From contig NZ_CP045737.1 in NCBI RefSeq assembly GCF_009649075.1, positions 1,054,001 through 1,118,000 of the forward strand: a stretch of 64,000 nt of DNA, written 5' to 3'. The notes below the pieces were generated by a model. It was not told the DNA's origin and did no database searches. It saw only the letters and a list, made by a program, of their open reading frames with translations. Position 1 is the stretch's first letter; the number at the start of each line of letters is the position of its first letter. This DNA is from Aeromicrobium yanjiei (lineage in GTDB: Bacteria > Actinomycetota > Actinomycetes > Propionibacteriales > Nocardioidaceae). Shown piece after piece: positions 7,136-30,914 of this stretch. Both the position numbers and the translations under genes were made by a program.

Positions 7136-9067
<1,932 letters not shown>

Positions 9068-9172
9068 GCAACGACCATGTCGTCTCGCGTCGTGCAGGCC
9101 GGCGCTGTGTAGGCTCTGCCTGCGCTGCGAATGGTCCGCTGTGCGCATCCCCGCACTCGGAGGAACAGGTTG

Positions 9173-10195
9173 ATGACGAAGGTGAACAAGGGCCGTGCCC
9201 TGCTGCTGGTGATCGCTGCGGGAGCGCTGCTCGGGCTGGTGGCGGCGGTCGCGTCGTGGCACGACGTGGCCATCGCGTCCTTCGGGCTCACGGGCGTCGT
9301 GGCCTTCGCGTGGATCGCCCTGTGGGCGCGCTCGGTCACCCGATCCGTGGCGCGTCTGCAGAAGAAGGTCAACGCGACCGCGTCCGCGACGAAGAAGCTG
9401 CCGGCTGCGGGCGACGTCACCGAGCTCGCTGACGCGGTGGCACAGGTCCGGGCCGCTGTCGACCGGATCGAGCGGACGCAGACCCACCAGCTGCCCGCGA
9501 CACAACGACTGCTGACCGAGGTGCGCGAGATCGTGGTCTCGGTGCAGCGCATCCCGAGCTCGACCGTCGAGCTCGAGCGGCTGTACGACCGGATCGTCGA
9601 CCACGACCGCCTGATGCCCGAGCTGGGCAACTGGGCCCTGTCGCCGCGGACCGTGGCCTGGGTCGCCGAGCACATCGCGACCACGCCGATCGACACGATC
9701 GTCGAGTGCGGCTCCGGCAGCTCGACGGTGTGGTGGGCCACGGCCCTCGAACGGCGTGGTGGACCGGGGCAGATCGTGTCGCTCGAGTCCAGCGCCGAGT
9801 ACGCCGAGATCACCCGCGGCCGGATCGCGGCGCTGGGCCTGTCCCACCGTGCCGAGGTCATCCACGCGCCGCTCGTGGACCTGGCACTGCCGGGCCGGGA
9901 CCCGCACCCCTGGTACGACCTGTCGGTGCTGCCGGCCGACCTCACCCGGATCGACCTGCTCTTCGTGGACGGTCCCGTGGGCGCGATCGCGCCGCAGGTG
10001 CGCTACCCGGGCTTCCCGATGCTGGCCGACCGTCTGCCCGCAGGTGCCCTGGTGATCCTCGACGACACCCCGCGTCCGGAGGAGACCGAGATCGCCGAGC
10101 GCTGGATGCGTGAGCGTCCTGCGGGTCGCCGCCTGACGATCGCGGAGCAGCTGGACCGTTCGATCGTCTTCCGGGTCGACGTCGACGCCGAGTGA
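9173..10195 (+). CDS. membrane-tethered class I methyltransferase (340 aa)
   Basis: Two hydrophobic segments (residues about 8-27 and 31-50) are followed by a helical, probably coiled-coil stretch (about 55-115) and a Methyltransf_24-like SAM domain: IVECGSGSSTVWWA for SAM binding, IVSLESS for the acidic strand, and IDLLFVDGPVG. The protein is probably anchored in the membrane with the catalytic domain in the cytoplasm. The start ATG is chosen because GGAGGA at 9159-9164 lies nine bases upstream; an earlier in-frame start at 9131 has no ribosome site. A TAGGCT hexamer at 9110-9115 is a likely -10. The gene separates the TIGR03960 and TIGR03936 genes that are usually neighbours. Substrate unknown. 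Confidence 0.78.
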   Translation: MTKVNKGRALLLVIAAGALLGLVAAVASWHDVAIASFGLTGVVAFAWIALWARSVTRSVARLQKKVNATASATKKLPAAGDVTELADAVAQVRAAVDRIERTQTHQLPATQRLLTEVREIVVSVQRIPSSTVELERLYDRIVDHDRLMPELGNWALSPRTVAWVAEHIATTPIDTIVECGSGSSTVWWATALERRGGPGQIVSLESSAEYAEITRGRIAALGLSHRAEVIHAPLVDLALPGRDPHPWYDLSVLPADLTRIDLLFVDGPVGAIAPQVRYPGFPMLADRLPAGALVILDDTPRPEETEIAERWMRERPAGRRLTIAEQLDRSIVFRVDVDAE

Positions 10196-18760: not shown

Positions 18761-20008
18761 ATGAAGCAGCAGGTGCACGACGCCGCCCGACGCGCGCGGA
18801 TCGCAGCCGGGACCCTCGCGGTCACGAACCGAGCGACCAAGGACGCCGCCCTCCACGCGATGGCTGACGCCCTCGTGGCCGGCACCGAGACGATCCTGAC
18901 GGCCAACTCCGCCGACGTCGAGGCCGCCCGCGCGGCGGGCACGCCCGACAACGTCCTGGACCGACTGCGTCTTGACGAGGACCGTGTCGCCGCCTTCGCC
19001 GACGGGGTCCGCTCGATCGCCGTGCTGCCCGATCCGGTGGGTGAGGTCGTGCGCGGCTCGACGTTGCCCAACGGGCTGCGCGTGCGTCAGGTCCGGGTGC
19101 CGATGGGCGTCATCGGCATGATCTACGAGGGGCGCCCCAACGTCACCGCAGACGCGGCCGCGATCTGCCTCAAGGCCGGCAGCGCCGTGCTCCTGCGCGG
19201 CTCGTCCTCGGCGGCGCGGTCCAATGCCGCGATCATCGCGATCATGCGGGACGCGCTGACCGCCACGGGACTGCCCGCGGACGCGATCCAGCAGATCAGC
19301 GCCGACGACCGCTCGTCCGCGACGCACCTCATGCAGGCGCGGGGGCTCGTCGACCTGGTGATCCCGCGCGGGGGAGCAGGCCTCATCCAGGCCGTCGTCG
19401 AGCAGTCCACCGTGCCGGTCATCGAGACCGGCGTGGGCAACTGCCACGTCTACGTCGACGCGGCGGCCGATCTCGACATGGCGCTCGACATCGTGCTCAA
19501 CGCCAAGACCCACCGCACGAGCGTCTGCAACGCGGCGGAGTCGCTGTTGGTGCACCAGGACGTGGCCGACGTCTTCGTGCCCCGTGTCGTGGCCGCCCTC
19601 CACGACGCCGGCGTCACGATCCACGGCGACGAGAGCTTCTGTGCGGTCGACGAGCGGGTCCTGACTGCGACCGCCGAGGACTACGCCCAGGAGTACCTCT
19701 CGCTCGACATCTCCGCGAAGGTCGTGGCCTCGATCGACGAGGCCCTCGACCACATCCGGGAGTTCTCCTCGGGGCACACCGAGGCCATCGTCACGGGCTC
19801 CCTCGCGGCGTCCACACGCTTCACGACGGGGGTGGACTCGGCCGCGATCATGATCAACGCCTCGACGCGATTCACCGATGGCGGCGAGCTGGGATTCGGT
19901 GCCGAGATCGGCATCTCGACCCAGAAGCTGCACGCCCGCGGACCCATGGGCCTGACCGAGATGACCACCACGACGTTCATCGTCACGGGCGACGGTCACG
20001 TTCGGTAG
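18761..20008 (+). CDS. proA: glutamate-5-semialdehyde dehydrogenase / gamma-glutamyl phosphate reductase (415 aa)
   Basis: Second enzyme of proline synthesis, reducing gamma-glutamyl phosphate with NADPH. It contains [40 protein letters not shown] and the catalytic Cys256 in [12 protein letters not shown]. The length is normal. The ATG at 18761 is chosen over an in-frame start at 18692 inside proB. It lies just downstream of proB, as in many actinobacteria. Confidence 0.96.
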
Positions 20009-20030
20009 AGCACTGGGATAGATTGTCCTC

Positions 20031-20180
20031 ATGCATTCGTTCATCGCCGCTGCCGAAGAGACCGAGCACCTGCGCGACATCGGCATCGAGCCGTGGGCCG
20101 TGGGCGTCATCGCCTTTGCCATCCTCATGGTCCTGCTGTTCGCCCTGCTGTCCTTCGGCAAGGGCCGCGAGCACTCCTGA
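20031..20180 (+). CDS. small single-pass membrane protein upstream of nadD (49 aa)
   Basis: A short gene with one clear membrane helix (about residues 22-42, [20 protein letters not shown]), an acidic N-terminal part ([10 protein letters not shown]) and a short charged C-terminus (FGKGREHS). TAGATT at 20019-20024 ends six bases before the ATG, indicating a leaderless transcript. nadD starts five bases after its stop, so the two are probably co-transcribed. Small membrane proteins are commonly found before nadD in actinobacteria; function unknown. Confidence 0.75.
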
Positions 20181-20185
20181 CCCCC

Positions 20186-20824
20186 GTGAGCACCGGACGC
20201 CGACGCGTCGGCGTCATGGGCGGCACCTTCGACCCCATCCACCACGGGCACCTCGTGGCGGCGAGCGAGGTGCAGTCCTGGTTCGACCTCGACGAGGTGG
20301 TGTTCGTCCCGACGGGACAGCCGTGGCAGAAGGTCGACCGCGACGTCTCGCCGGCCGAGGACCGCTACCTCATGACCGTCATCGCGACCGCGGCCAATCC
20401 CCGGTTCACGGTCAGCCGCGTCGACATCGACCGGCAGGGACCGACCTACACGATCGACACCCTGCGCGACCTGTCGGAGCTGCACCCGGACGCGGACCTG
20501 TACTTCATCACGGGCGCCGACGCCATGGCAGCGCTGCTGACCTGGCGCGATCACGACGAGCTGTTCGAGCTCGCCCAGTTCGTCGGCTGCACCCGTCCGG
20601 GGCACGAGATGGACGACACGACCCTCGAGGGCCTGCCCCGCGAGCACATCACCCTCGTCGAGATCCCCGCGCTGGCGATCTCCTCGACGGACTGCCGCCA
20701 ACGTGTCGAGCACGGCGAGCCGGTCTGGTACCTCGTGCCGGACGGCGTCGTGCAGTACATCGGCAAGCACGACCTCTACCGTGACATCCACCGACCGAAG
20801 GCACCGACTCATGACCGCCACTGA
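20186..20824 (+). CDS. nadD: nicotinate-mononucleotide adenylyltransferase (212 aa)
   Basis: Joins NaMN and ATP to nicotinate adenine dinucleotide in NAD synthesis. The nucleotidyltransferase motif [12 protein letters not shown] starts at residue 12, and the C-terminal motif is ISSTDCR (usually ISST-I-R). The GTG at 20186 is preferred because it begins directly after the small membrane gene; longer frames run through that gene. Its 3' end overlaps rsfS by 14 bases, indicating coupled translation. Confidence 0.95.
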
Positions 20825-21164
20825 CCGCGCCGTCGAGCTGACCCGAGCAGCGGCAGCGGCCGCCGAGGACAAGCTCGCCCAGGACGTCATCGCGTTCGAC
20901 GTCTCCGAGCAGCTCGCACTGACCGACGTCTTCCTGCTGTGCTCCGGCTCCAGCCCGCGCCAGGTCAAGGCGATCCAGGACGCGGTCGAGGAGAAGATGA
21001 TCGAGCTGGGCGTCAAGGCCGTGCGCCGCGAGGGCGAGCGCGAGGGCCGATGGGTCCTGCTCGACTTCCAGGACATCGTCGTGCACGTCCAGCACCAGGA
21101 GGAGCGCGTGTTCTACGCGCTCGAGCGCCTCTGGAGCGACTGCCCGGTCGTCACGCTGGCATGA
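20811..21164 (+). CDS. rsfS: ribosome silencing factor RsfS (117 aa)
   Basis: Member of the RsfS/YbeB/Iojap family, which binds L14 and blocks subunit joining during starvation. Diagnostic stretches are [40 protein letters not shown], and [16 protein letters not shown]. The length is typical. Start overlaps nadD; stop overlaps the next start (ATGA). The nadD-rsfS order is widely conserved. Confidence 0.95.
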
Positions 21165-21805
21165 CCCGCCAGGTCGTGCTGTGGCGCCACGGGCGCACCG
21201 AGTGGAACGTCGCCGGGCGCGTCCAGGGGCAGAGCGACATCCCCCTCGACGAGGTCGGTCACGCGCAGGCGCAGGAGGCTGCGAGCCGCCTGGCCACCCT
21301 CAGGCCGCACCGCATCCTCAGCTCGGACCTGCAGCGGGCCCGCGACACCGCGGCGTACCTCGGTGCGTTCACCGGTCTGGAGGTCGAGCTGGACCAGCGC
21401 TTCCGCGAGCTCAACTTCGGTGCCCGCGAAGGGCTGACGTGGCGCGAGGCGTGGGACCGGATGCCCGAGGGCATGCAGGCGTGGGTCGACGGCGACGAGA
21501 CGCAGATCCCCGGGAGCGAGACCCACCTGCAGGCGGGGGAGCGCTTCGCCGAGGGCCTGGAGTCGGCTCTCGCGTCGCTGCCCGCGGACAGCATCCTCGT
21601 CGTCGTCGCCCACGGTGCGGTGCTCCGCACGGGCATCTGCAGCTTCCTGGGCATCCCTCGCGCGCACTGGGGCACGTTCGGCGCGCTCAACAACTGCGCG
21701 TGGTCGGTCATCGAGGAGACACCGTGGCGTCCCGACACGAGCTGGCGGCTCACGGAGTGGAACGCCGGAACCCTTCCGGTTCCAGTGATGTCCGACGAGG
21801 AGTGA
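21161..21805 (+). CDS. histidine phosphatase family protein, phosphoglycerate mutase-like (214 aa)
   Basis: Begins VVLWRHGRTEWN, with the phospho-accepting histidine in the RHG motif (residues 9-11), then SSDLQRARDTA, the acid residue region FRELNFGAREGLT, and a second histidine in VVVAHGAVLRT. This is a cofactor-dependent phosphatase branch rather than a true glycolytic mutase, judging by length and by context after rsfS. The start overlaps the rsfS stop. Substrate unknown; in some actinobacteria enzymes at this position act on phosphosugars. Confidence 0.9.
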   Translation: MTRQVVLWRHGRTEWNVAGRVQGQSDIPLDEVGHAQAQEAASRLATLRPHRILSSDLQRARDTAAYLGAFTGLEVELDQRFRELNFGAREGLTWREAWDRMPEGMQAWVDGDETQIPGSETHLQAGERFAEGLESALASLPADSILVVVAHGAVLRTGICSFLGIPRAHWGTFGALNNCAWSVIEETPWRPDTSWRLTEWNAGTLPVPVMSDEE

Positions 21806-21812
21806 CCCCGGA

Positions 21813-21842
21813 TTGGGTCTTTCGGAGCGGACCGGCTAATAT
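21813..21842 (+). promoter_or_regulatory. tRNA-Ala promoter
   Basis: TTGGGT (21813-21818), 18-base spacer, TAATAT (21837-21842). The start site would be near 21849, about 20 bases before the mature tRNA. Confidence 0.6.
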
Positions 21843-21869
21843 TGGCGAGGCCCCTGAGGGGGACACCGC

Positions 21870-21942
21870 GGGGCATTGGCGCAGTTGGTAGCGCGCTTCC
21901 ATGGCATGGAAGAGGTCAGGAGTTCGAATCTCCTATGCTCCA
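21870..21942 (+). tRNA. tRNA-Ala (GGC)
   Basis: A full 73-base cloverleaf: acceptor GGGGCAT/ATGCTCC (one G-U pair), D arm with AGTTGGTAGC, anticodon stem CTTCC/GGAAG with the loop ATGGCAT (anticodon GGC), variable AGGTC, T arm AGGAG-TTCGAAT-CTCCT and discriminator A. The 3' CCA is not encoded. Confidence 0.96.
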
Positions 21943-21956
21943 CCGCACAGCACGTT

Positions 21957-21987
21957 GAACGCCCTTCCCGGACCGGGAGGGGCGTTC
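21957..21987 (+). terminator. hairpin after tRNA-Ala
   Basis: A 14-bp stem (one G-U pair) with a GAC triloop, 15 bases after the tRNA. There is no T run, as is common for high-GC actinobacterial terminators. Confidence 0.7.
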
Positions 21988-22069
21988 GTCGTTCGTGGTC
22001 CCCGACCGGGTCCCGGGACCCACTGCTGACGGGCCCGGGGGACGCCGGCGAGTTGGTACGGTGGCGGGC

Positions 22070-22813
22070 GTGTCCCGGGTGACGATGCGATCGGCGTTCA
22101 TCTCGGTGGCAGTGACGATCGCGGGCCTGCACCTGGTCGCCGTCACCCTGGCCGCCCTGCCGCCCAACCGCTACAGCGACGCGACAGCGTCCCGCACCGG
22201 CTACCTCGAGCCCTACTTCGCGCAGAACTGGCGGCTGTTCGCTCCCGCTCCCGTCGCGCAGGACCGCGAGGTCCTGTTCCAGGGCTCGTACGTCGGCGAC
22301 GACGGCACGGCGCGGCGTACCGCATGGGTCAGCTGGACCGGTGTCGAGCTGGACCTGATCCGGCACCGGCTGGTGGGTGGCCGCGCGGGATACGTCACCA
22401 ACAAGCTCTACGGGCCGCTCAGCCAGCGTTATCGCGGCCTGGGGCTGGCCCAGCGGGCGATCGCCGACGGCACGGACGAGACGGCCCCACCGTCGTGGAG
22501 CGAGCTGAGGGCGGACCTGTCGGCCGGGGGAGCAGATCCCGTCCGCGTCCGGACCTACGTCCTGTACGAGGAGGCGGCGGCGCGACTGGGGACCGAGGTG
22601 CTGGAGGCCCGGACGGGTCATGAGCTCACCGCCGTTCGCTATCGGCTGCGCGCGCACTCCGTGGTGCCCTACGCGCAGCGCACGGGCTCGGAGGTCGAGC
22701 GGCAGGCCGCCCGGCCGTCACCGACCCAGCGGGAGAGCGGCTGGCGCGTCCCGACGACCGGCGGCGCCCGCGAGCGCGACGCCGTCGCGGCGTTCGACCG
22801 GAGGCACCGATGA
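22070..22813 (+). CDS. DUF5819 family protein, first copy (247 aa)
   Basis: Matches the actinobacterial DUF5819 pattern: one N-terminal membrane segment (residues about 9-30), then an extracytoplasmic domain opening with GYLEPYFAQNWRLFAPAP. Function unknown. The GTG at 22070 is supported by TACGGT (22057-22062) seven bases upstream, a leaderless arrangement; an ATG at 22085 is an alternative. The stop overlaps the ATG of the following HTTM gene, so the two proteins are likely partners. A second, diverged DUF5819-HTTM pair lies at 25344-27186. Confidence 0.8.
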   Translation: MSRVTMRSAFISVAVTIAGLHLVAVTLAALPPNRYSDATASRTGYLEPYFAQNWRLFAPAPVAQDREVLFQGSYVGDDGTARRTAWVSWTGVELDLIRHRLVGGRAGYVTNKLYGPLSQRYRGLGLAQRAIADGTDETAPPSWSELRADLSAGGADPVRVRTYVLYEEAAARLGTEVLEARTGHELTAVRYRLRAHSVVPYAQRTGSEVERQAARPSPTQRESGWRVPTTGGARERDAVAAFDRRHR

Positions 22814-23751
22814 TCGAGCGCGCGGTGGGCTGGCTCAGTCAGGAGAAGCACTCGACGTACGGCCTGGCCGTCACCCGGATGATCCTGGGGCTCGTTGTGG
22901 CGAGCCAGCTCGTCGTCAACTGGGACGACCGGCACTACACGTGGGGCGACGGGGCGGAGTGGACCGCGCCGGTCCGCGACGCGACGTCCTGGCCGTCCTT
23001 TCTCGGCCTGTTCGGCCGACTGGACGGGAGGGCCTTCGACGCGCTCTACCTCCTGACGATCGTCTTCGGGGTGCTCCTGATGGTCGGCTACCGCACCCGC
23101 GCCACCGCGATCGTGACGCTGTTCCTGTGGATGTCCCTCTACGTCGCGAACCCGTTCGTGGGCTCGGGCGGAGACGCCGTGCTGCGCATGGTCCTGCTCT
23201 ACCTGTGCTTCACCGACGCAGGACTGCGCTGGTCGGTCGATGCCCGCCAGCGTGCCGAACGAGGGGAGATCCGGCCGTACGTACCGACGTGGGCCTCGGC
23301 CACGCTGCACAACCTGGCGACGATCCTGATCATCCACCAGGTCGTCATGGTCTACGTCGGATCGGCCTTCTGGAAGCTGCAGAGCGAGCGCTGGATGGAC
23401 GGGACGGCGGTCTACTACCCGCTGCAGACCGACGCGTACTCACCGTGGCACGACTGGCTGCAGCCCTTGTACGCCAACGGGCTCGTGATCGGCGGCGCGA
23501 CGTACCTCGCGATCGTCGTGCAGCTGTTCTTCCCGGTGCTGCTGATCCATCGGCCCACCCGACTGATCGCGCTCGTGCTGATCACCGGGATGCACCTGGG
23601 CATCGGCCTGTTCATGGGGATCTTGTACTTCTCGCTCGTCATGATCGCGGTCGACATGATCCTGGTGAGCGACTCGTCGTGGCTCCGCATCGCCGCTGCG
23701 GTACGCGCTCGCGGCAGGCGGCCGGTCCCGCAGCCTCCGTCCCGGGTGTGA
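22810..23751 (+). CDS. HTTM domain membrane protein, first copy (313 aa)
   Basis: Polytopic membrane protein with an HTTM (horizontally transferred transmembrane) domain, the domain shared with vitamin K-dependent gamma-carboxylase. It starts with LAVTRMILGLVVASQLVVNW and contains NPFVGSGGDAVLRMVLLYLC, the conserved N-P-G-GD-R region, then GSAFWKL and HLGIGLFMGI. Translation is coupled to the DUF5819 gene by an ATGA overlap. Whether bacterial HTTM proteins of this kind are carboxylases is not known. The gene is followed by a promoter and the LPDAG-anchored protein gene. Confidence 0.82.
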   Translation: MIERAVGWLSQEKHSTYGLAVTRMILGLVVASQLVVNWDDRHYTWGDGAEWTAPVRDATSWPSFLGLFGRLDGRAFDALYLLTIVFGVLLMVGYRTRATAIVTLFLWMSLYVANPFVGSGGDAVLRMVLLYLCFTDAGLRWSVDARQRAERGEIRPYVPTWASATLHNLATILIIHQVVMVYVGSAFWKLQSERWMDGTAVYYPLQTDAYSPWHDWLQPLYANGLVIGGATYLAIVVQLFFPVLLIHRPTRLIALVLITGMHLGIGLFMGILYFSLVMIAVDMILVSDSSWLRIAAAVRARGRRPVPQPPSRV

Positions 23752-23781
23752 CGCAGGCCCTGTAACCGGGAGTGACATTTC

Positions 23782-23810
23782 TTGTCTCCGGCTCTCGGAG
23801 ATCCTGTAAA
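23782..23810 (+). promoter_or_regulatory. promoter of the LPDAG protein, with internal palindrome
   Basis: TTGTCT (23782-23787) and TGTAAA (23805-23810) are 17 bases apart. Between them lies CTCCG-gctct-CGGAG (23786-23800), a 5-bp inverted repeat in the spacer that could be an operator. The transcript would carry a leader of about 98 bases, with AAGGGGA as the ribosome site (23900-23906). Confidence 0.45.
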
Positions 23811-23914
23811 TGTGGTTTAAGGTTGCGGAGCACGCACTCCCATGCTCCGCACCCGCCTCGACCGCGCTCCACGACGTGCGGCGGGCAAAAAAAGAAGTCA
23901 AGGGGAACTCCCAC

Positions 23915-25246
23915 ATGAAGAAAACGCTTGCCAAGAACTCCCTGGCAGCCGGGCTGGCGACACTCATCGTCACGGCCGGTCTGTCGTTCTCCGCCAACGG
24001 CGCGCCGGCTCCGGTCGCGTCGGCCGATGCCAGCGCGGTGAGGGGCACCGGCCTCTTCGAGGCTCTCGACGGTGGCACCTGTGAGGCCGTCCAGCCCACC
24101 GGCGCCACGACCGGTCGGTGCGGCGAAGGTCTTGACACCAACAGCATCGACGCGTTCTCGCAGAACGCGTCGGCAGGGGTCGACAAGGACCTCGACGGTG
24201 TCTCGGAGGCCAGCGCCAGCGTCGCGCCGATCGAGGCCCTCGACCTGCAGACGACCCTGGATCTCACGGACCTCGTGGAGGACCTCGGCGAGGTCGAGAC
24301 CGGGACGGTCCTGGATCCGATCCTGACCGGGCTGGTCGGCGACGGCAGCATCATCGGCGAGCTGCTCCGCACGCTGCTCCTCCCGGTCACCGAGGCCGTC
24401 GACACCGTGCTCGGCCAGGCGCTGGGGACGATCGACACCTCACTGCCGGTCACCCTCCGCGTGGGCGCGGTCAACGCCTCGGCCGAGGCCGAGCCGGGCC
24501 GGGCGACCGGTGAGAGCTCCGTTGCCGGTCTCGAGCTCGTCGTCACGCTCGGCACCGAGGAGATCGTCGTGCCGGTCACGCTCGGCACCGGCGTCAACGC
24601 CGATCTGCTGGTCGGTGCGCCGCAGGACCTGGTCGACGGGATCATCGCCGGGCTGAGCGACACGCTGACCAGGAGCCTCGGTGGGGCCCTCGGCGCCCTC
24701 AGCCCGCAGCTCGAGGCGCTCAACGCGCAGCTCGTCGGGCCGCTGCTCGACGCACTGGAGCCGACCCTGCTGGCGGGCCTGTCCGATGCGCTGAAGCCGC
24801 TCGTGAGCGGCACGGTCAACAAGCAGGTCGCGGCCTCGCCCGGCGAGCTCGAGGTCACGGCGCTGAGCCTGACGCTCCTCGGCGGCAACACGCTCGACCT
24901 GGCACGGGTCCACGTCGGGCCCAACCGGGTCGGCGAGGCAGCCGACGATGCGGACGCGGCAGCCGATGCCGACTCCGATGCCGACTCTGATGCCGACTCC
25001 GACTCCGACGCGGACTCGGCGGGCGACGCTGATGCCGATGCTGCGAGCGACGCGGATGCGGACGCTGACGCCGATGCCGATGCGGTGGCCGACGCCGACG
25101 CGCAGTCCGACGCCGACGTGACGCAGGCACTGCCGGACGCAGGTGCTCCCCGCAACCTGCTGCCGTTCATGTTCCTGGGCCTGGCCCTCGTGCTGTTCGG
25201 CGGAGCCGTCCTGCTGAACGAGAAGCGCCGCCGCCTGGTGGCGTGA
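23915..25246 (+). CDS. secreted Asp/Ala/Ser-repeat protein with LPDAG C-terminal anchor (choice-of-anchor G-like, 443 aa)
   Basis: A signal peptide (residues 1-29, MKKTLAKNSLAAGLA...) is followed by a mature domain rich in Leu, Val, Thr and Gly (about 30-340, including repeated LDALEPTLL/LSDALKPL segments) and a low-complexity Asp-Ala-Ser stretch (about 344-403, DADSDADSDADSDSD type). The end is a sorting-like signal: LPDAG at 406-410, a hydrophobic helix and KRRR. The pattern resembles the choice-of-anchor G family of actinobacterial surface proteins. LPDAG differs from LPxTG at position 4, so sortase processing is inferred. No sortase is in the window. The ATG follows AAGGGGA by eight bases. 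Its placement between two DUF5819-HTTM pairs suggests a shared role. Confidence 0.75.
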   Translation: MKKTLAKNSLAAGLATLIVTAGLSFSANGAPAPVASADASAVRGTGLFEALDGGTCEAVQPTGATTGRCGEGLDTNSIDAFSQNASAGVDKDLDGVSEASASVAPIEALDLQTTLDLTDLVEDLGEVETGTVLDPILTGLVGDGSIIGELLRTLLLPVTEAVDTVLGQALGTIDTSLPVTLRVGAVNASAEAEPGRATGESSVAGLELVVTLGTEEIVVPVTLGTGVNADLLVGAPQDLVDGIIAGLSDTLTRSLGGALGALSPQLEALNAQLVGPLLDALEPTLLAGLSDALKPLVSGTVNKQVAASPGELEVTALSLTLLGGNTLDLARVHVGPNRVGEAADDADAAADADSDADSDADSDSDADSAGDADADAASDADADADADADAVADADAQSDADVTQALPDAGAPRNLLPFMFLGLALVLFGGAVLLNEKRRRLVA

Positions 25247-25264
25247 TCGACTGAGCATGACCAG

Positions 25265-25299
25265 CGCTGCCGGTGACCCTCTCCAGGGCACCGGCAGCG
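25265..25299 (+). terminator. strong hairpin after the LPDAG gene
   Basis: Perfect 11-bp stem CGCTGCCGGTG/CACCGGCAGCG continued by CCCT/AGGG around a CTCC loop, 18 bases after the stop. It is a likely terminator and argues against the in-frame ATG at 25257 being the start of the next gene. Confidence 0.75.
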
Positions 25300-25343
25300 G
25301 TGCGTCCGGACGCACCGACCGACGAGGACAGGACGAGCTCGAG

Positions 25344-26099
25344 ATGCAGACCACCGGAGCGGCGTCATCCGGTCACCGGCCGTGGCAACGAGCGCTCGTG
25401 GTCGTCCTGGCGCTGGTCGCGGTGGTGCACGCGGCGGTGCTGGCCCTGTGGGTGTCCCCGTCCGGTCCGGTCCGTGACGCGGTCGGCGACCGAGCACTGG
25501 CGGCCTGGGTCAATCCCTACTTCGCCCAGCAGTGGAGCGCGCTGGTGCCCAACGCCCAGTTCGCGGACGAGTCGTTCATGGTCCGTGCGCAGGTCAGGGA
25601 CGGTGCCGGCGGCGCGATCACGATGAGCGACTGGATGGACGTGACGGCGGTCGAGACGGACGCGCTGCGGCACGACATCGATCCCGCACGCGTCCACGTG
25701 GCGGCCCGCCGGATCGCGACCAACCTCAACGGCGCGATGTTCGGCCTCAACCCGCGCCAGCGCGAGCTCGTCGCCGCGTCGTACACGAAGGAGCCGATCG
25801 AGCGGCTCGGCGACCGGCTGTACTCGGCGGGCACGGACCGCCAGGCGGCCGTCCGGAGCTACGTCACGTACGACACCATGGCGACGCGCTTCGCCTCGAT
25901 GTACGCCCGCGCACGGCTCGACGGGACGATCCTCAAGGTGCAGTACCGCGTCGGACGCCGCACGGTGCCCGCGGGCGCGGATCGCCCGGCAGATGCTCTG
26001 CACGACCGCGACTTCCGCTGGTTCGCGTTCGGCTTCCGACGGGGGTTCACCGCCTCCTACGAGGCGCAGACCGCATTCGAGCGCCATGCGGGGGCGTGA
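25344..26099 (+). CDS. DUF5819 family protein, second copy (251 aa)
   Basis: A membrane segment at about residues 18-38 (ALVVVLALVAVVHAAVLAL) is followed by the DUF5819-type NPYFAQQWSALVPNAQFADE start of the outer domain. It shares the PYFAQ-W core with the copy at 22070 but is otherwise diverged, so the duplication is old. The ATG at 25344 is chosen because an upstream ATG at 25257 overlaps the terminator hairpin and would add a poorly conserved tail. The stop falls inside the start of the HTTM gene (14-base overlap). Function unknown. Confidence 0.72.
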   Translation: MQTTGAASSGHRPWQRALVVVLALVAVVHAAVLALWVSPSGPVRDAVGDRALAAWVNPYFAQQWSALVPNAQFADESFMVRAQVRDGAGGAITMSDWMDVTAVETDALRHDIDPARVHVAARRIATNLNGAMFGLNPRQRELVAASYTKEPIERLGDRLYSAGTDRQAAVRSYVTYDTMATRFASMYARARLDGTILKVQYRVGRRTVPAGADRPADALHDRDFRWFAFGFRRGFTASYEAQTAFERHAGA

Positions 26100-27186
26100 G
26101 CCGGTGCCGTCGCGGGGACGGCGCGTGGTGCAGGCGCCCGGGCGGGCGGTCGACGCGGCGGCGGACTGGCTGCTGGCCGAGCCGCGTACGCCGTACGGCG
26201 CCGCGGTGTGCCGGATCGGGGTCGCGCTCTCGGTGCTCGGCCTGCTCGCAGCCAATGCGTCGACCCGGGAGGCCTGGGCGGGTCCGGGCGCGGTCTGGGC
26301 CGAGCCTGCACGCGCGCTGAGCCAGTTCCCCGAGACGCAGCTGCTCGACGGAGTCAGCGGGGACGTGCTGACCCTGTTCTACGTCCTCACCATGGCGGCG
26401 GCCGCCGCGATGGTGCTCGGCTGGCACGCCAGGGCCGCCAACGCGGTGACGCTCGTCGGGTTCATCGCTGTGGTCTCGCAGAACCCGGTGGTCGGCGACG
26501 AGGGAGACAATCTCGTGCGGATCGCCCTGATGTGGCTCCTGCTCATGCAGACGGCAGAGCGCTGGTCCCTCGACGCGTGGCGCCGTGGGCGCAGGAGCGA
26601 CCAGGTCGAGGAGGAGCGGGAGGCGGTCCTGCCGCCCTGGCTCGCGTCGGGCCTGCACCACGTGGGACTGATCGGTCTCACGACCCAGATCGTGCTGCTG
26701 TGCCTGGCCGGTGGCCTGGACAAGATCTCGCAGGACGTCTGGCAGCGGGGCACGGCGATGTACTCCACGATGCAGCTGCCCGAGCTGCGTCCCCACCCGG
26801 GTCTGTCGGACGCGATCTCCACGAACCCGATCGCCCTGGGCGCCCTGACCTACGCCGTGCTGCTCACCCAGCTGTTGTTCGGGCCGTTCCTCCTCCACAC
26901 CGTGACGCGCAGGATCGTCGTCGCGGCGACGGTCCTGGTCAATCTCGTGCTCGCGGTGCTGCTGGCCGTGCCGTGGAGCGCGCTCGCGATCGTCTCGCTC
27001 GCAGCGGTGTTCGTGTCCACCGAGTCGTACGAGCGGGTGGACGAGTGGCTCCGGGCCCGTCTGGCGCCTGTGGGGGACTGGCTGGCCCTGCGCTGGTACG
27101 CCGTCGAGGACGCCGGGACCGCGGTGCTGGAGCGCACCTGGTGGCCGGTGGCGGACTGGGTCAGAGCCGCCGTGCGGCGTCGCTGA
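26086..27186 (+). CDS. HTTM domain membrane protein, second copy (366 aa)
   Basis: Polytopic HTTM protein paralogous to the one at 22810. It aligns through NPVVGDEGDNLVRIALMWLLL, and through GLDKISQDVWQRGTAMY, which corresponds to GSAFWKLQSERWMDGTAVY in the first copy. It carries an extra C-terminal tail rich in Trp and Arg. The start ATG overlaps the DUF5819 stop; a GTG at 26104 is an alternative. Genes and order repeat the first pair exactly, which supports a conserved two-subunit unit. No enzyme activity can be assigned. Confidence 0.8.
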   Translation: MRGREPVPSRGRRVVQAPGRAVDAAADWLLAEPRTPYGAAVCRIGVALSVLGLLAANASTREAWAGPGAVWAEPARALSQFPETQLLDGVSGDVLTLFYVLTMAAAAAMVLGWHARAANAVTLVGFIAVVSQNPVVGDEGDNLVRIALMWLLLMQTAERWSLDAWRRGRRSDQVEEEREAVLPPWLASGLHHVGLIGLTTQIVLLCLAGGLDKISQDVWQRGTAMYSTMQLPELRPHPGLSDAISTNPIALGALTYAVLLTQLLFGPFLLHTVTRRIVVAATVLVNLVLAVLLAVPWSALAIVSLAAVFVSTESYERVDEWLRARLAPVGDWLALRWYAVEDAGTAVLERTWWPVADWVRAAVRRR

Positions 27187-27206
27187 GCTCGGCTAGGCTC
27201 CCGACC

Positions 27207-27578
27207 GTGAAGGCACTCCTGAACCTCCTGCTCGGCCTCGTGGGGGCCGGGATCGTCGCCGCGATCGTGCTGTTCTTCGTGACCCGTGCGGACGAGGAGG
27301 AGGACGCCGCGCCTCCCGCCGAGAACGCGGTCGTCCGGATGTCCACCCAGGGGGTCGTCGCCAACATCGAGCGAAAGCTCGAGGCCACGTCCGGGCGGCC
27401 GCTCGAGGTCAGGTGTCCGAAGAAGGTCGATGAGTCGATCGGCACGACGTTCCGCTGCAGCGTGCGTGCCGAGGGCGGACGGGACCGCATCGCGATCGCG
27501 AGCGTCGAGATCAGGGGAGCGGGTGGACAGTTCGGCTGGACCTCCCGTCCGGTGGAGGCCGCGGCCCCGGCTCCGTAG
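27207..27578 (+). CDS. DUF4333-like membrane-anchored protein (123 aa)
   Basis: An N-terminal membrane helix (about residues 2-26) is followed by an acidic linker and a small extracytoplasmic domain with VRCPKKVDESIGTTFRC, the Cys-P...G-xx-F-xC pattern of DUF4333, whose two cysteines may form a disulfide. Function unknown. TAGGCT at 27194-27199, seven bases before the GTG, marks a leaderless start. It ends three bases before the convergent MFS gene with no hairpin between. Confidence 0.72.
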   Translation: MKALLNLLLGLVGAGIVAAIVLFFVTRADEEEDAAPPAENAVVRMSTQGVVANIERKLEATSGRPLEVRCPKKVDESIGTTFRCSVRAEGGRDRIAIASVEIRGAGGQFGWTSRPVEAAAPAP

Positions 27579-27581
27579 CGA

Positions 27582-28808
27582 TCAGACGGCGCCGGCGGCC
27601 ACGCGTCGTCCCGAGAGCACCAGCAGGACCACCGGGATCGTCAGGACCGCGGCCGCGACGTTGAGCGTGCCGAAGCCGCTCACCGCCACCACGAGCCCGG
27701 CCAGCAGTCCGCCGAAGGCGCCGGCAAGATTCATCGTCAGGTCGGACAGTCCTTGGACGACAGGACGGGTCGAGACCTCGAGGGAGTTGGTCAGCTTGGC
27801 CGCTCCGGCGATGACCGACGCGGACCAGCCGATGCCGAGCAGCGTGAGGCCGATCGTGATCTGCACCTGCGAGCTGCCCGACGTGCCCGCGACGCACGCC
27901 GCCACGACGAGGATCGACTGGCCGAGCAGGATCGTGCGGTCGGCTCCCCAGGTGTCGCTCAGCCAGCCCATCAGGGGCGACAGCGCGAACATGCCGGCGA
28001 TGTGCAGGCTGATGGTCAGGCCGATGACCTCGAGGGCGGCCCCGTGATCCTCCATGTGCACCGGGGTCAGGGCCATGACCGCGACCATCACGGCGTGCGA
28101 CGAGGCGATGGCCCACATCGCGGTGAGCGTGCGGCCACGCGCGTACGGCAGGGCGGCGCGGAGTCCGCGGGGTGCCGGTGCAGCATCGGCTGAGCGCACG
28201 AGGGGATCGGGGCGCAGCAGCACGAACGTCAGCAGGCCGGCGATGCCGAAGCCGACGGCCGAGAAGATCATGGGTCCGGCGAGATCGGGCACGCCGACGA
28301 GATCGGCGAACGAGGCGCCGGGGCCGGTCAGGTTGGGCCCGATGACCGCGCCGAGGGTGGTCGACCAGACCACGATCGACAGCGAGCGGCCGATCTGCTC
28401 GGGCTGGGCCCGGTCGGTCGCGGCGAACCGCGACTGGAGATTGGCCGCGGTGCTGCCGCCGAACAGACCGAGCCCGGCGAGTGCCAGCGGGAGGGACTCC
28501 AGCGAGGCGGCCGCGACCGTGATCGCGGCGCCGAGCGCGCCGGCGACCCAGCCGAGCGTGAGGGCGGGTCGCCGCCCGGCCCGGGCGGCGAGCGAGGACA
28601 ACGGGATCGTGAACGCTGCCGCGCCGAGCGTCAGCATGACGACGGCCATGCCCGCCCAGCCGGACGAGCCGGAGATGTCCTTCAGCAGCAGGCTGCCGAC
28701 GGCGAGCCCGGCACCGTTGCCGACGCCGCCCACCACCTGCACCAGCACGAGCACCAGCACCACCCGCCGCTGCACGGAGGCTGTCGGAACGGGCCCAGAA
28801 GAACTCAC
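27582..28808 (-). CDS. MFS transporter (408 aa)
   Basis: About 12 helices, with the MFS loop 2-3 motif as SLAARAGRRPALTLGWVAG and a second-half counterpart GWLSDTWGADRTILLG. General drug/metabolite-exporter-like, with no specific substrate signature. TAGATT (minus strand, 28815-28820) ends six bases before the GTG, so a leaderless mRNA is likely. Confidence 0.8.
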   Translation of the reverse strand: MSSSGPVPTASVQRRVVLVLVLVQVVGGVGNGAGLAVGSLLLKDISGSSGWAGMAVVMLTLGAAAFTIPLSSLAARAGRRPALTLGWVAGALGAAITVAAASLESLPLALAGLGLFGGSTAANLQSRFAATDRAQPEQIGRSLSIVVWSTTLGAVIGPNLTGPGASFADLVGVPDLAGPMIFSAVGFGIAGLLTFVLLRPDPLVRSADAAPAPRGLRAALPYARGRTLTAMWAIASSHAVMVAVMALTPVHMEDHGAALEVIGLTISLHIAGMFALSPLMGWLSDTWGADRTILLGQSILVVAACVAGTSGSSQVQITIGLTLLGIGWSASVIAGAAKLTNSLEVSTRPVVQGLSDLTMNLAGAFGGLLAGLVVAVSGFGTLNVAAAVLTIPVVLLVLSGRRVAAGAV

Positions 28809-28871
28809 CGAAGGAATCTATCGAAGAGCGACGACACGCACGAGACCACAGGCCGAGCGAGCGCCAGCTGG

Positions 28872-28970
28872 GGGCACCTCCCGCTTGCGGGGGAGTGAAG
28901 GCAAGCGCCCGGGCGAAGCCCGGCAGAGCGGCGAGGAACGAGCCGCGGGCGCGGCGAAGCCGCGCAGCGC
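28872..28970 (-). repeat. cluster of four GC-rich hairpins after the M13 peptidase gene
   Basis: In 99 bases there are four stems: CCCG-CTTG-CGGG near 28880-28891, a 6-bp stem with GAA triloop at 28909-28923, GCGGC/GCCGC at 28928-28946, and a 7-bp GCGCGGC-GAA-GCCGCGC at 28949-28965. It lies directly downstream (minus strand) of the peptidase stop, so it could terminate transcription or protect the 3' end. The CTGGGGGCACCTCCCGC edge looks like a dispersed intergenic repeat. Confidence 0.55.
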
Positions 28971-30914
28971 TTACCAGATGCGCACGCGCTCCTGCTCGTC
29001 CAGCCAGAGCGCGTCGTCGGCGCCGACGTCGAATGCCGCGTAGAACGCGTCGATGTTGCGGACGGTCTGGTTGCAGCGGAACTCCGGCGGCGAGTGCGGG
29101 TCGACGGTGAGTCGGCGCACGGTCTCGGCCGGACGCACCTTGGCCTGCCAGGCCTGCGCCCAGGAGATGAAGAAGCGCTGGTCGGGGGTCAGCCCGTCGA
29201 TGGGCTCGTCGGTCGGCTCGGTGAGGCGGAACGCCTGGTGGGCGATGCCGAGCCCGCCGAGGTCGCCGATGTTCTCGCCGATCGTGAGGGAGCCGTTGAC
29301 CGTACGTCCCTCGGCGCCGACGGGGGACAGGACGTCGTACTGGGCGATGAGCGCGGAGGTGAGCTTCTCGAACGAGGCCCGGTCCTCGTCGGTCCACCAG
29401 TTGCGCAGGGCGCCGGTGCCGTCGTACTGCGAGCCCTGGTCGTCGAAGCCGTGGCCGATCTCGTGGCCGATGACCGCGCCGATCGCGCCGTAGTTGACCG
29501 CGTCGTCGGCGTCCGCGTGGAAGAACGGCGGCTGCAGGATCGCGGCCGGGAAGACGATCTCGTTCATCGTGGGGTTGTAGTACGCGTTGACGGTCTGCGG
29601 CGTCATGTACCACTCGTCGCGGTCGATCGGCGAGCCGATCTTGGCGAGCTCGCGGTCGGTGGCGACCGCGATGGCGCGCCGGACGTTGCCCAGGAGGTCG
29701 TCGGGGGAGGTCTCCAGGGCCGAGTAGTCCTTGAACTGGTCGGGGTGGCCGATCTTGGGGTTGAACGAGTCGAGCTTGTCGTACGCCCGCTCCTTGGTCT
29801 CCTCACTCATCCAGGTCAGCCGGGAGATGCTCTGCCGGTACGCCGCGAGGAGGTTGTCGATCAGCTCGCTCATCCGCTCCTTGGACGCGGGCGGGAACTC
29901 GGTGCGGACGTAGATCTTGCCGACCGCCTCACCCATCGCGCCCTCGACGAAGCCGACGCCGCGCTTCCAGCGGGGGCGCAGCTCGTCGGTGCCGCTGAGC
30001 GTACGACCGTAGAACTCGAAGTTGGCGTCGACGAACGCGGACGACAGGTACGGCGAGGCGCTGTGGACGACCTGCCAGCGCAGCCAGTCCTTCCACGCGT
30101 CGAGCTCGGCCTCGACCAGGAGCGTCTCGAGGCCCTGGAGGTAGGACGGCTGCGAGACGACGACCTCGGCGAGCACGGGCGCCGGCACCTGCGCGCCCGC
30201 GGACCAGCTGGTCCAGTCGAAGCTCGGCGCGAGCTCCTGCAGGCCGTCACCGGTGAGGTGGTTGTAGGTCTTCTGCGCGTCGCGGCACGCGACCCGGTCC
30301 CAGTGGAACGAGGCCAGCCGGGTCTCCAGGTCCATGATCCGCGCGGCGCGGCCGGCGGCGTCGTCGAGACCCGCGAGCCCCAGCATCGTGGTCAGGTGCG
30401 CGACGTACGCCTCGCGGATCCCTGCGGACTCCTCCTCGCGGTAGTACGACTCGTCGGGCAGGCCGATGCCGCCCTGACCGAGGTGGGTGATGTAGCGGTC
30501 GGGGTTGCCGCGGTCGGGTGCGATGTACATCCCGAGGACGCTGCCGACACCCTGACGGTCCAGCAGACCGAGCACCCGCACGAACGAGGCGATGTCGGCG
30601 ATCGCGTCGACCTGGGCCAGCTCGGCCACGAGGGGCTCGGCGCCGAGGGCCTCGACCCGCTCCTCGTCCATGAAGCTCGCGTAGAGATCGCCGATCTTGC
30701 GCTGCTCGTCGTCCTGCGGGTCCTTGCTCGCGGTCTCGATGATCTCGCGGACCTTGGCCTCGGCCTCGTCCACGAGCGCCACGAACGAGCCGGCGGTCGC
30801 GCGGTCGGGCTTGATCTCCGCGGTCGCGAGCCACCGCCCGTTGACGTGACGGAACAGGTCGTCCTGAACGCGGACGGAGGAGTCGAGCTGTGTCGTGTCG
30901 ATACCGGGGTTCAC
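28971..30914 (-). CDS. M13 family zinc metallopeptidase (647 aa)
   Basis: Neprilysin/PepO-like endopeptidase. The zinc motif is HEIGH at residues 484-488 in IGAVIGHEIGHGFDDQG; the third ligand lies in ENIGDLGG, and NAYYNPTMNEIVFPA is the family substrate-binding region. There is no signal peptide, as in other actinobacterial M13 enzymes, so it may be cytoplasmic or released by another route. GTG start at 30914; TAGCCT six bases upstream on the minus strand gives a leaderless transcript. The gene shares its 17-base upstream region with the divergent siderophore-interacting protein gene. Confidence 0.92.
   Translation of the reverse strand: MNPGIDTTQLDSSVRVQDDLFRHVNGRWLATAEIKPDRATAGSFVALVDEAEAKVREIIETASKDPQDDEQRKIGDLYASFMDEERVEALGAEPLVAELAQVDAIADIASFVRVLGLLDRQGVGSVLGMYIAPDRGNPDRYITHLGQGGIGLPDESYYREEESAGIREAYVAHLTTMLGLAGLDDAAGRAARIMDLETRLASFHWDRVACRDAQKTYNHLTGDGLQELAPSFDWTSWSAGAQVPAPVLAEVVVSQPSYLQGLETLLVEAELDAWKDWLRWQVVHSASPYLSSAFVDANFEFYGRTLSGTDELRPRWKRGVGFVEGAMGEAVGKIYVRTEFPPASKERMSELIDNLLAAYRQSISRLTWMSEETKERAYDKLDSFNPKIGHPDQFKDYSALETSPDDLLGNVRRAIAVATDRELAKIGSPIDRDEWYMTPQTVNAYYNPTMNEIVFPAAILQPPFFHADADDAVNYGAIGAVIGHEIGHGFDDQGSQYDGTGALRNWWTDEDRASFEKLTSALIAQYDVLSPVGAEGRTVNGSLTIGENIGDLGGLGIAHQAFRLTEPTDEPIDGLTPDQRFFISWAQAWQAKVRPAETVRRLTVDPHSPPEFRCNQTVRNIDAFYAAFDVGADDALWLDEQERVRIW

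Follow-up and report, generated by a model that had tools for sequence, protein, structure and literature searches.

Aeromicrobium yanjiei carries a locus in which two pairs of membrane-protein genes, each a DUF5819 gene followed by an overlapping HTTM gene, flank the gene for a single secreted, sortase-anchored protein. The locus lies on the forward strand at 22070..27186 of the stretch analyzed here (the window; 64,000 nucleotides of contig NZ_CP045737.1). It is probably an SdpAB-like module for the maturation or handling of a cell-surface protein, called the cargo below, and would act on the constant ends of that cargo or on its anchoring. The pairs stay constant while the exposed domain of the cargo is exchanged. 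This exchange, the homology of HTTM to SdpB, and a conserved carboxylase lysine in HTTM are additions to the original prediction for this DNA, which proposed that the pairs modify or export the surface protein, as they may.

Organization of the Locus

The first pair consists of DUF5819 copy a (22070..22813, 247 amino acids; PF19136, E 9e-25, 88.6 bits against a cut-off of 27.1) and an HTTM/SdpB-like protein, copy a (22810..23751, 313 amino acids; PF05090, E 8e-15, 55.6 bits against a cut-off of 27.7), whose genes overlap by 4 bp. In the second pair, DUF5819 copy b (25344..26099, 251 amino acids; E 2e-26, 94.3 bits, cut-off 27.1) overlaps by 14 bp with HTTM/SdpB-like copy b (26086..27186, 366 amino acids; E 3e-15, 56.9 bits, cut-off 27.7). 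DUF5819 copy a appears to have a short N terminus, a single transmembrane helix, and an extracytoplasmic domain.

The surface protein between them, termed Mid (23915..25246, 443 amino acids), begins with a signal peptide and an exchangeable ectodomain segment (24008..24940, delimited by blastn break points). An Asp/Ala/Ser tract follows (24935..25129; residues 341–405, 65 residues with 25 Asp, 26 Ala, and 7 Ser), and the protein ends in a sorting signal recognized by motif and conservation (25130..25246), made up of LPDAG, a hydrophobic segment, and the basic tail RRR. These are the attributes of a sortase-anchored protein, and the genome has two sortase genes; with the Pfam model Gram_pos_anchor the protein scores 11.5 bits and does not reach the cut-off of 20. 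Pfam and the sequence thus agree with the arrangement first described, in which two DUF5819–HTTM pairs flank a secreted LPDAG protein with an Asp/Ala/Ser tract. Profile searches gave no SdpC family match in the 443-residue protein, and a fold search of the PDB at E <= 0.001 with its structural model (predicted local distance difference test score, pLDDT, 70) gave no match.

Exchange of the Ectodomain

Comparison by blastn of the window with its nearest relative (locus L083, genome G029) aligned 20003–24007 at 85.5% and 24941–29000 at 79%. Between the break points at 24007 and 24941 the two loci encode unrelated ectodomains. The replacement segment in the relative, 1332 bp at 8850–10181, codes for a choice-of-anchor G domain (NF033766, E 2.6e-27), a family with no match in the window ectodomain. 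Both break points are sharp; one falls just past the signal peptide and the other where the Asp tract starts. On either side of the swapped part, the signal peptide and a linker with the sorting signal stay constant. At least five changes of ectodomain type are found on the tree of HTTM copy a, all forced by well-supported branches, and five on that of DUF5819 copy a, three of them so forced. The sorting end is the best-conserved part of the surface protein: mean pairwise identity is 70% there, 56% in the signal peptide, and 32% in the ectodomain.

As a separate observation, conservation of the sorting segment (alignment pattern NLLPF..LG..L...G....NE.RR) is higher than is usual for sortase signals, and the segment may be a recognition element. 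The exchange of ectodomains also resembles what is seen at surface-diversity loci, and phage, predation, or competition may be behind it.

The composition of the tract changes as well. Its acidity is 22–37% in most orthologues and 7–8% in three genomes (G002, G004, and G019), where it is built of Asn/Ala/Pro (NAPANA) or Gln/Ala (AQAQAQ). Both pairs are retained in these three, which shows that the pairs have no general need for Asp. The acidic tract was accordingly rejected as their general target, and with it goes the emphasis that the original prediction had placed on an acidic protein.

Relationships of HTTM and DUF5819

Profile comparison with hhalign relates HTTM to SdpB at a probability of 99.5 and E 2e-23. 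In Bacillus subtilis, the processing of SdpC needs SdpA and SdpB (PMC6818787). The locus is like the SdpABC/YitPOM systems of cannibalism-toxin maturation in having a homologous HTTM protein that shares Lys, Trp, and GGD/E motifs with SdpB, a small membrane-anchored partner encoded just before it, and an adjoining secreted cargo. On actinobacterial plasmids, the order SdpC–SdpA–SdpB matches cargo–DUF5819–HTTM. There are also clear differences: a large wall-anchored protein takes the place of a pro-toxin of ~200 amino acids as cargo, the partner is DUF5819, which is weakly similar to SdpA, two pairs flank a single cargo, and the HTTM proteins fall under the SdpB family cut-off.

The HTTM profile also matches human chains of the vitamin K–dependent gamma-carboxylase (GGCX; its structures include 9bum and 9l20) at E 7e-20, with homology along the length of HTTM. 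Carboxylase Lys218, which starts the reaction, and His160, which is listed as essential (PMC9146348), fare differently in the alignment. The lysine is kept in 38 of the 39 pair HTTM proteins, including both window copies (Lys189 in copy a), and in SdpB. The histidine is not kept, the aligned residue being Gly in 36 of the 39 and Ser or Ala in the other three. The comparison of catalytic residues suggested earlier therefore comes out in favor of the carboxylase for the lysine and against it for the histidine. Unlike GGCX, the proteins described here have no fused lumenal domain. Nothing at the locus points to a Glu-rich substrate, and conservation does not extend to the acidic tract.

The HTTM literature found deals with GGCX or with linaridins, and a literature search for DUF5819 found no description. 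The HTTM proteins of the linaridins, for example CrdG of corynaridin, likewise take part in the maturation of an exported peptide by a chemistry that is unknown (PMC9927463); compared by description only, they differ in having a small substrate, a ribosomally synthesized and posttranslationally modified peptide, and an alpha/beta hydrolase where DUF5819 is found here. A PDB fold search at E <= 0.001 with the AlphaFold model of DUF5819 copy b (pLDDT 86) gave no match, and a PDB sequence search with DUF5819 found nothing credible. To our knowledge, the chemistry of bacterial HTTM proteins such as SdpB is an open question.

Association with Anchored Proteins in Aeromicrobium

Identity between copies a and b is 26% for DUF5819 and 28% for HTTM, and a search of the genome found no DUF5819 or HTTM genes beyond the two of each. 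Across the genus the HTTM copies form one clade each (support 100/99 and 100/100), which places the duplication before the sampled species diverged. The view that the pairs are diverged products of an old duplication, both of which were kept, is borne out.

Within a set of 59 genomes from the genus and its order, DUF5819 is confined to the genus, and 26 of 49 Aeromicrobium genomes have a match to the surface protein. In most carriers of the block, which is widespread in the genus, one flank has rsfS and a phosphoglycerate-mutase-like gene and the other has genes for a major facilitator superfamily protein and an M13 peptidase. Nine genomes lacking DUF5819 also lack an anchored open reading frame near the same M13 gene, and at two loci (L192 and L194) both flanks are visible and the entire block is missing.

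Association was scored as an open reading frame with a sortase signal ending just upstream of DUF5819 or starting just downstream of its HTTM, using 65 Aeromicrobium DUF5819 genes in the loci compared and 751 other genes from all loci. Such a frame adjoins 62 of the 65, upstream of DUF5819 in 38 and downstream of HTTM in 24, the latter being copies a, which precede their cargo. None of the 751 background genes passes the upstream test and 26 pass the looser downstream one. The link between the pairs and a sortase-anchored protein therefore stands, with three exceptions, two at contig ends and one real. These counts include orthologues and are not phylogenetically independent; independent evidence therefore lies in how many different cargos there are.

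The order cargo–DUF5819–HTTM is seen with several cargo families in the genus: Mid, with a short or a choice-of-anchor G ectodomain, a TETDG-repeat LPDTG protein, a NYGVFA LPxTG protein, and a choice-of-anchor G protein of 1053 amino acids. Other cargos carry GTDNS or GVDQT repeats. Lone pairs group in the tree by cargo class within the genus. Roughly half of the cargos encoded at this locus and one lone-pair cargo contain the choice-of-anchor G domain. The NYGVFA cargo–DUF5819–HTTM sets (L034, 10260–11584; L087, 9479–10737) are followed by two small genes, the first lipoprotein-like; one of the two has a weak match to a lipo-invert C-terminal anchor domain.

Pairs Outside Aeromicrobium

DUF5819 matches were found in 34 of 398 genomes of the phylum, mostly from one genus (f6, g11), presumed from gene content to be Streptomyces. 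In a genome of family f11 (G257), a choice-of-anchor G gene stands directly before a DUF5819–HTTM pair, and a second genome (G284), in which the region is split by a contig end, probably has the same arrangement. On a Curtobacterium plasmid, an LAFTG protein related to the NYGVFA cargo precedes the pair. Among the second copies in Streptomyces, six of eight lie directly behind a secreted Ice_binding (PF11999) gene (loci L140, L142, and L143; genomes G252, G336, G456, G404, G092, and G352). None of the Streptomyces copies examined adjoins a sortase signal. The original prediction had named, as a finding that would count against it, that pairs usually occur without an anchored protein nearby; this is the case in Streptomyces and is not the case in Aeromicrobium, in the f11 genome (and probably its counterpart), or on the Curtobacterium plasmid.

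A third Streptomyces type of DUF5819 follows an 87-residue protein (L147 and L148), and an adjoining HTTM is seen only in L149. A plasmid labelled Bacillus subtilis (CP123774.1, 29937–37825; L169 and L183) has an actinobacterial-looking DUF5819–HTTM pair with an LPXTG protein and isoprenoid genes; its species label may be wrong.

Flanking Features

Upstream of the locus lies a tRNA-Ala (GGC) gene (21870..21944, forward strand, found by ARAGORN). Adjoining pair b on the same strand is a gene for a DUF4333-like membrane protein (27207..27578, 123 amino acids; PF14230, E 4e-5, 24.2 bits, below the cut-off of 27), which has this position directly behind the pair only in the closest relatives of the window. 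Scans of the locus for sigma-70 promoters and terminators found nothing beyond chance level, and there was no match to the PADLOC defence families.

Proposed Mechanism and Alternatives

The cargo would be exported by the Sec pathway and then anchored by sortase, with each DUF5819–HTTM pair forming an SdpA–SdpB-like membrane complex that serves it at the outer face of the membrane. This service may be timed around export, before or during anchoring. HTTM would be the membrane enzyme core, possibly retaining a quinol-type chemistry through its conserved lysine, and DUF5819 would be a membrane-tethered partner on the outside, perhaps for substrate recognition. The most likely site of action is at the ends of the cargo, which are constant, or at the anchoring step, as opposed to the ectodomain or acidic residues, since the signal peptide, the sorting signal, and the pairs stay when the ectodomain is swapped and the tract shifts in composition.

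A number of points weigh against an SdpAB-like module that serves the neighboring cargo. The SdpB family model TIGR04033 scores 67.5 bits on copy a and 28.7 on copy b and its cut-off of 178.4 is not reached; the tree also sets SdpB apart from the pair HTTM proteins. The hhalign match between DUF5819 and SdpA is weak (P 0.0035, probability 9%, 57 columns). Its score of 27.0 exceeds 18.9, the highest value among 100 column shuffles, and both families have a transmembrane helix followed by QxWxxF; taken together, homology of the two is only suggestive. The real exception in Aeromicrobium, a lone pair at locus L036 (8218–10213, genome G028, contig C135), stands beside a secreted protein of 112 amino acids. 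The main Streptomyces copy occupies a conserved place with no surface-protein neighbor, which indicates that some pairs work on their own or in trans. Two choice-of-anchor G genes (L162 and L163; G436 and G099) have no pair nearby. Adjacency of genes is no proof of action on a neighbor, and homologous recombination at the ends could by itself leave conserved ends around a swapped middle. As an aside on the L036 pair, its 112-residue neighbor is of no known family and is possibly a small cargo.

One alternative is that the genes are neighbors without interaction, the pairs having a general envelope function at a site that is merely permissive for the swapping of surface cassettes. The main Streptomyces copies and the swapping of ectodomains beside unchanged pairs both fit this idea. 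However, the order cargo–DUF5819–HTTM is found again beside unrelated cargos, both at different loci and in other families, lone pairs group by cargo class, pairs and cargo are absent together, and no background gene passed the upstream test. Independence of the neighbors thus seems doubtful. A broader form of the SdpAB-like module is also on the unlikely side, namely that DUF5819–HTTM is a general enzyme system of actinobacteria that draws on the menaquinol pool, through the carboxylase-type lysine, to modify or process large anchored proteins at a conserved end, leaving the ectodomain freely exchangeable.

There is a slim chance that HTTM works as a carboxylase on acidic residues (Asp of the tract, or Glu) in the way that gamma-carboxylase acts on Glu, consuming menaquinol, O2, and CO2 and so creating a calcium-binding tract. 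The homology to gamma-carboxylase, the aligned catalytic lysine, and the 25 Asp in the 65-residue tract of the window speak for it. Set against this are the orthologues that keep both pairs with a tract of low acidity, the GTDNS and GVDQT repeats of other cargos, and the Gly aligned to a histidine listed as essential (PMC9146348), and the closest studied bacterial relative, SdpB, is known for SdpC processing, not for carboxylation. Carboxylation of the Asp tract as a general role is unlikely.

Least probable of all is an sdp-like competition operon in which the surface protein is a pro-toxin and the pairs free its C-terminal hydrophobic segment, as SDP is freed from SdpC: the SdpB homology, the same gene order, the variable middle, and the defined hydrophobic segment would suit it, but that segment has the canonical form of a sorting signal, LPxTG-like motif and basic tail included, and is the best-conserved part of the protein, whereas SdpC homologues differ in their C-terminal domains (PMC6818787), no SdpI-type immunity gene was noticed at the locus, and the cargos are large anchored adhesin-like proteins.

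Significance

The preferred reading, an SdpAB-like module that serves a wall-anchored cargo, suggests that SdpAB-like machinery also serves large wall-anchored proteins. Because these modules tie HTTM and DUF5819 to surface proteins that are large and easy to tag, their reaction could be searched for by mass spectrometry of wall proteins instead of in a toxic peptide. With its ectodomains exchanged in a constant frame, the locus is a natural experiment on what the machinery recognizes in its cargo.

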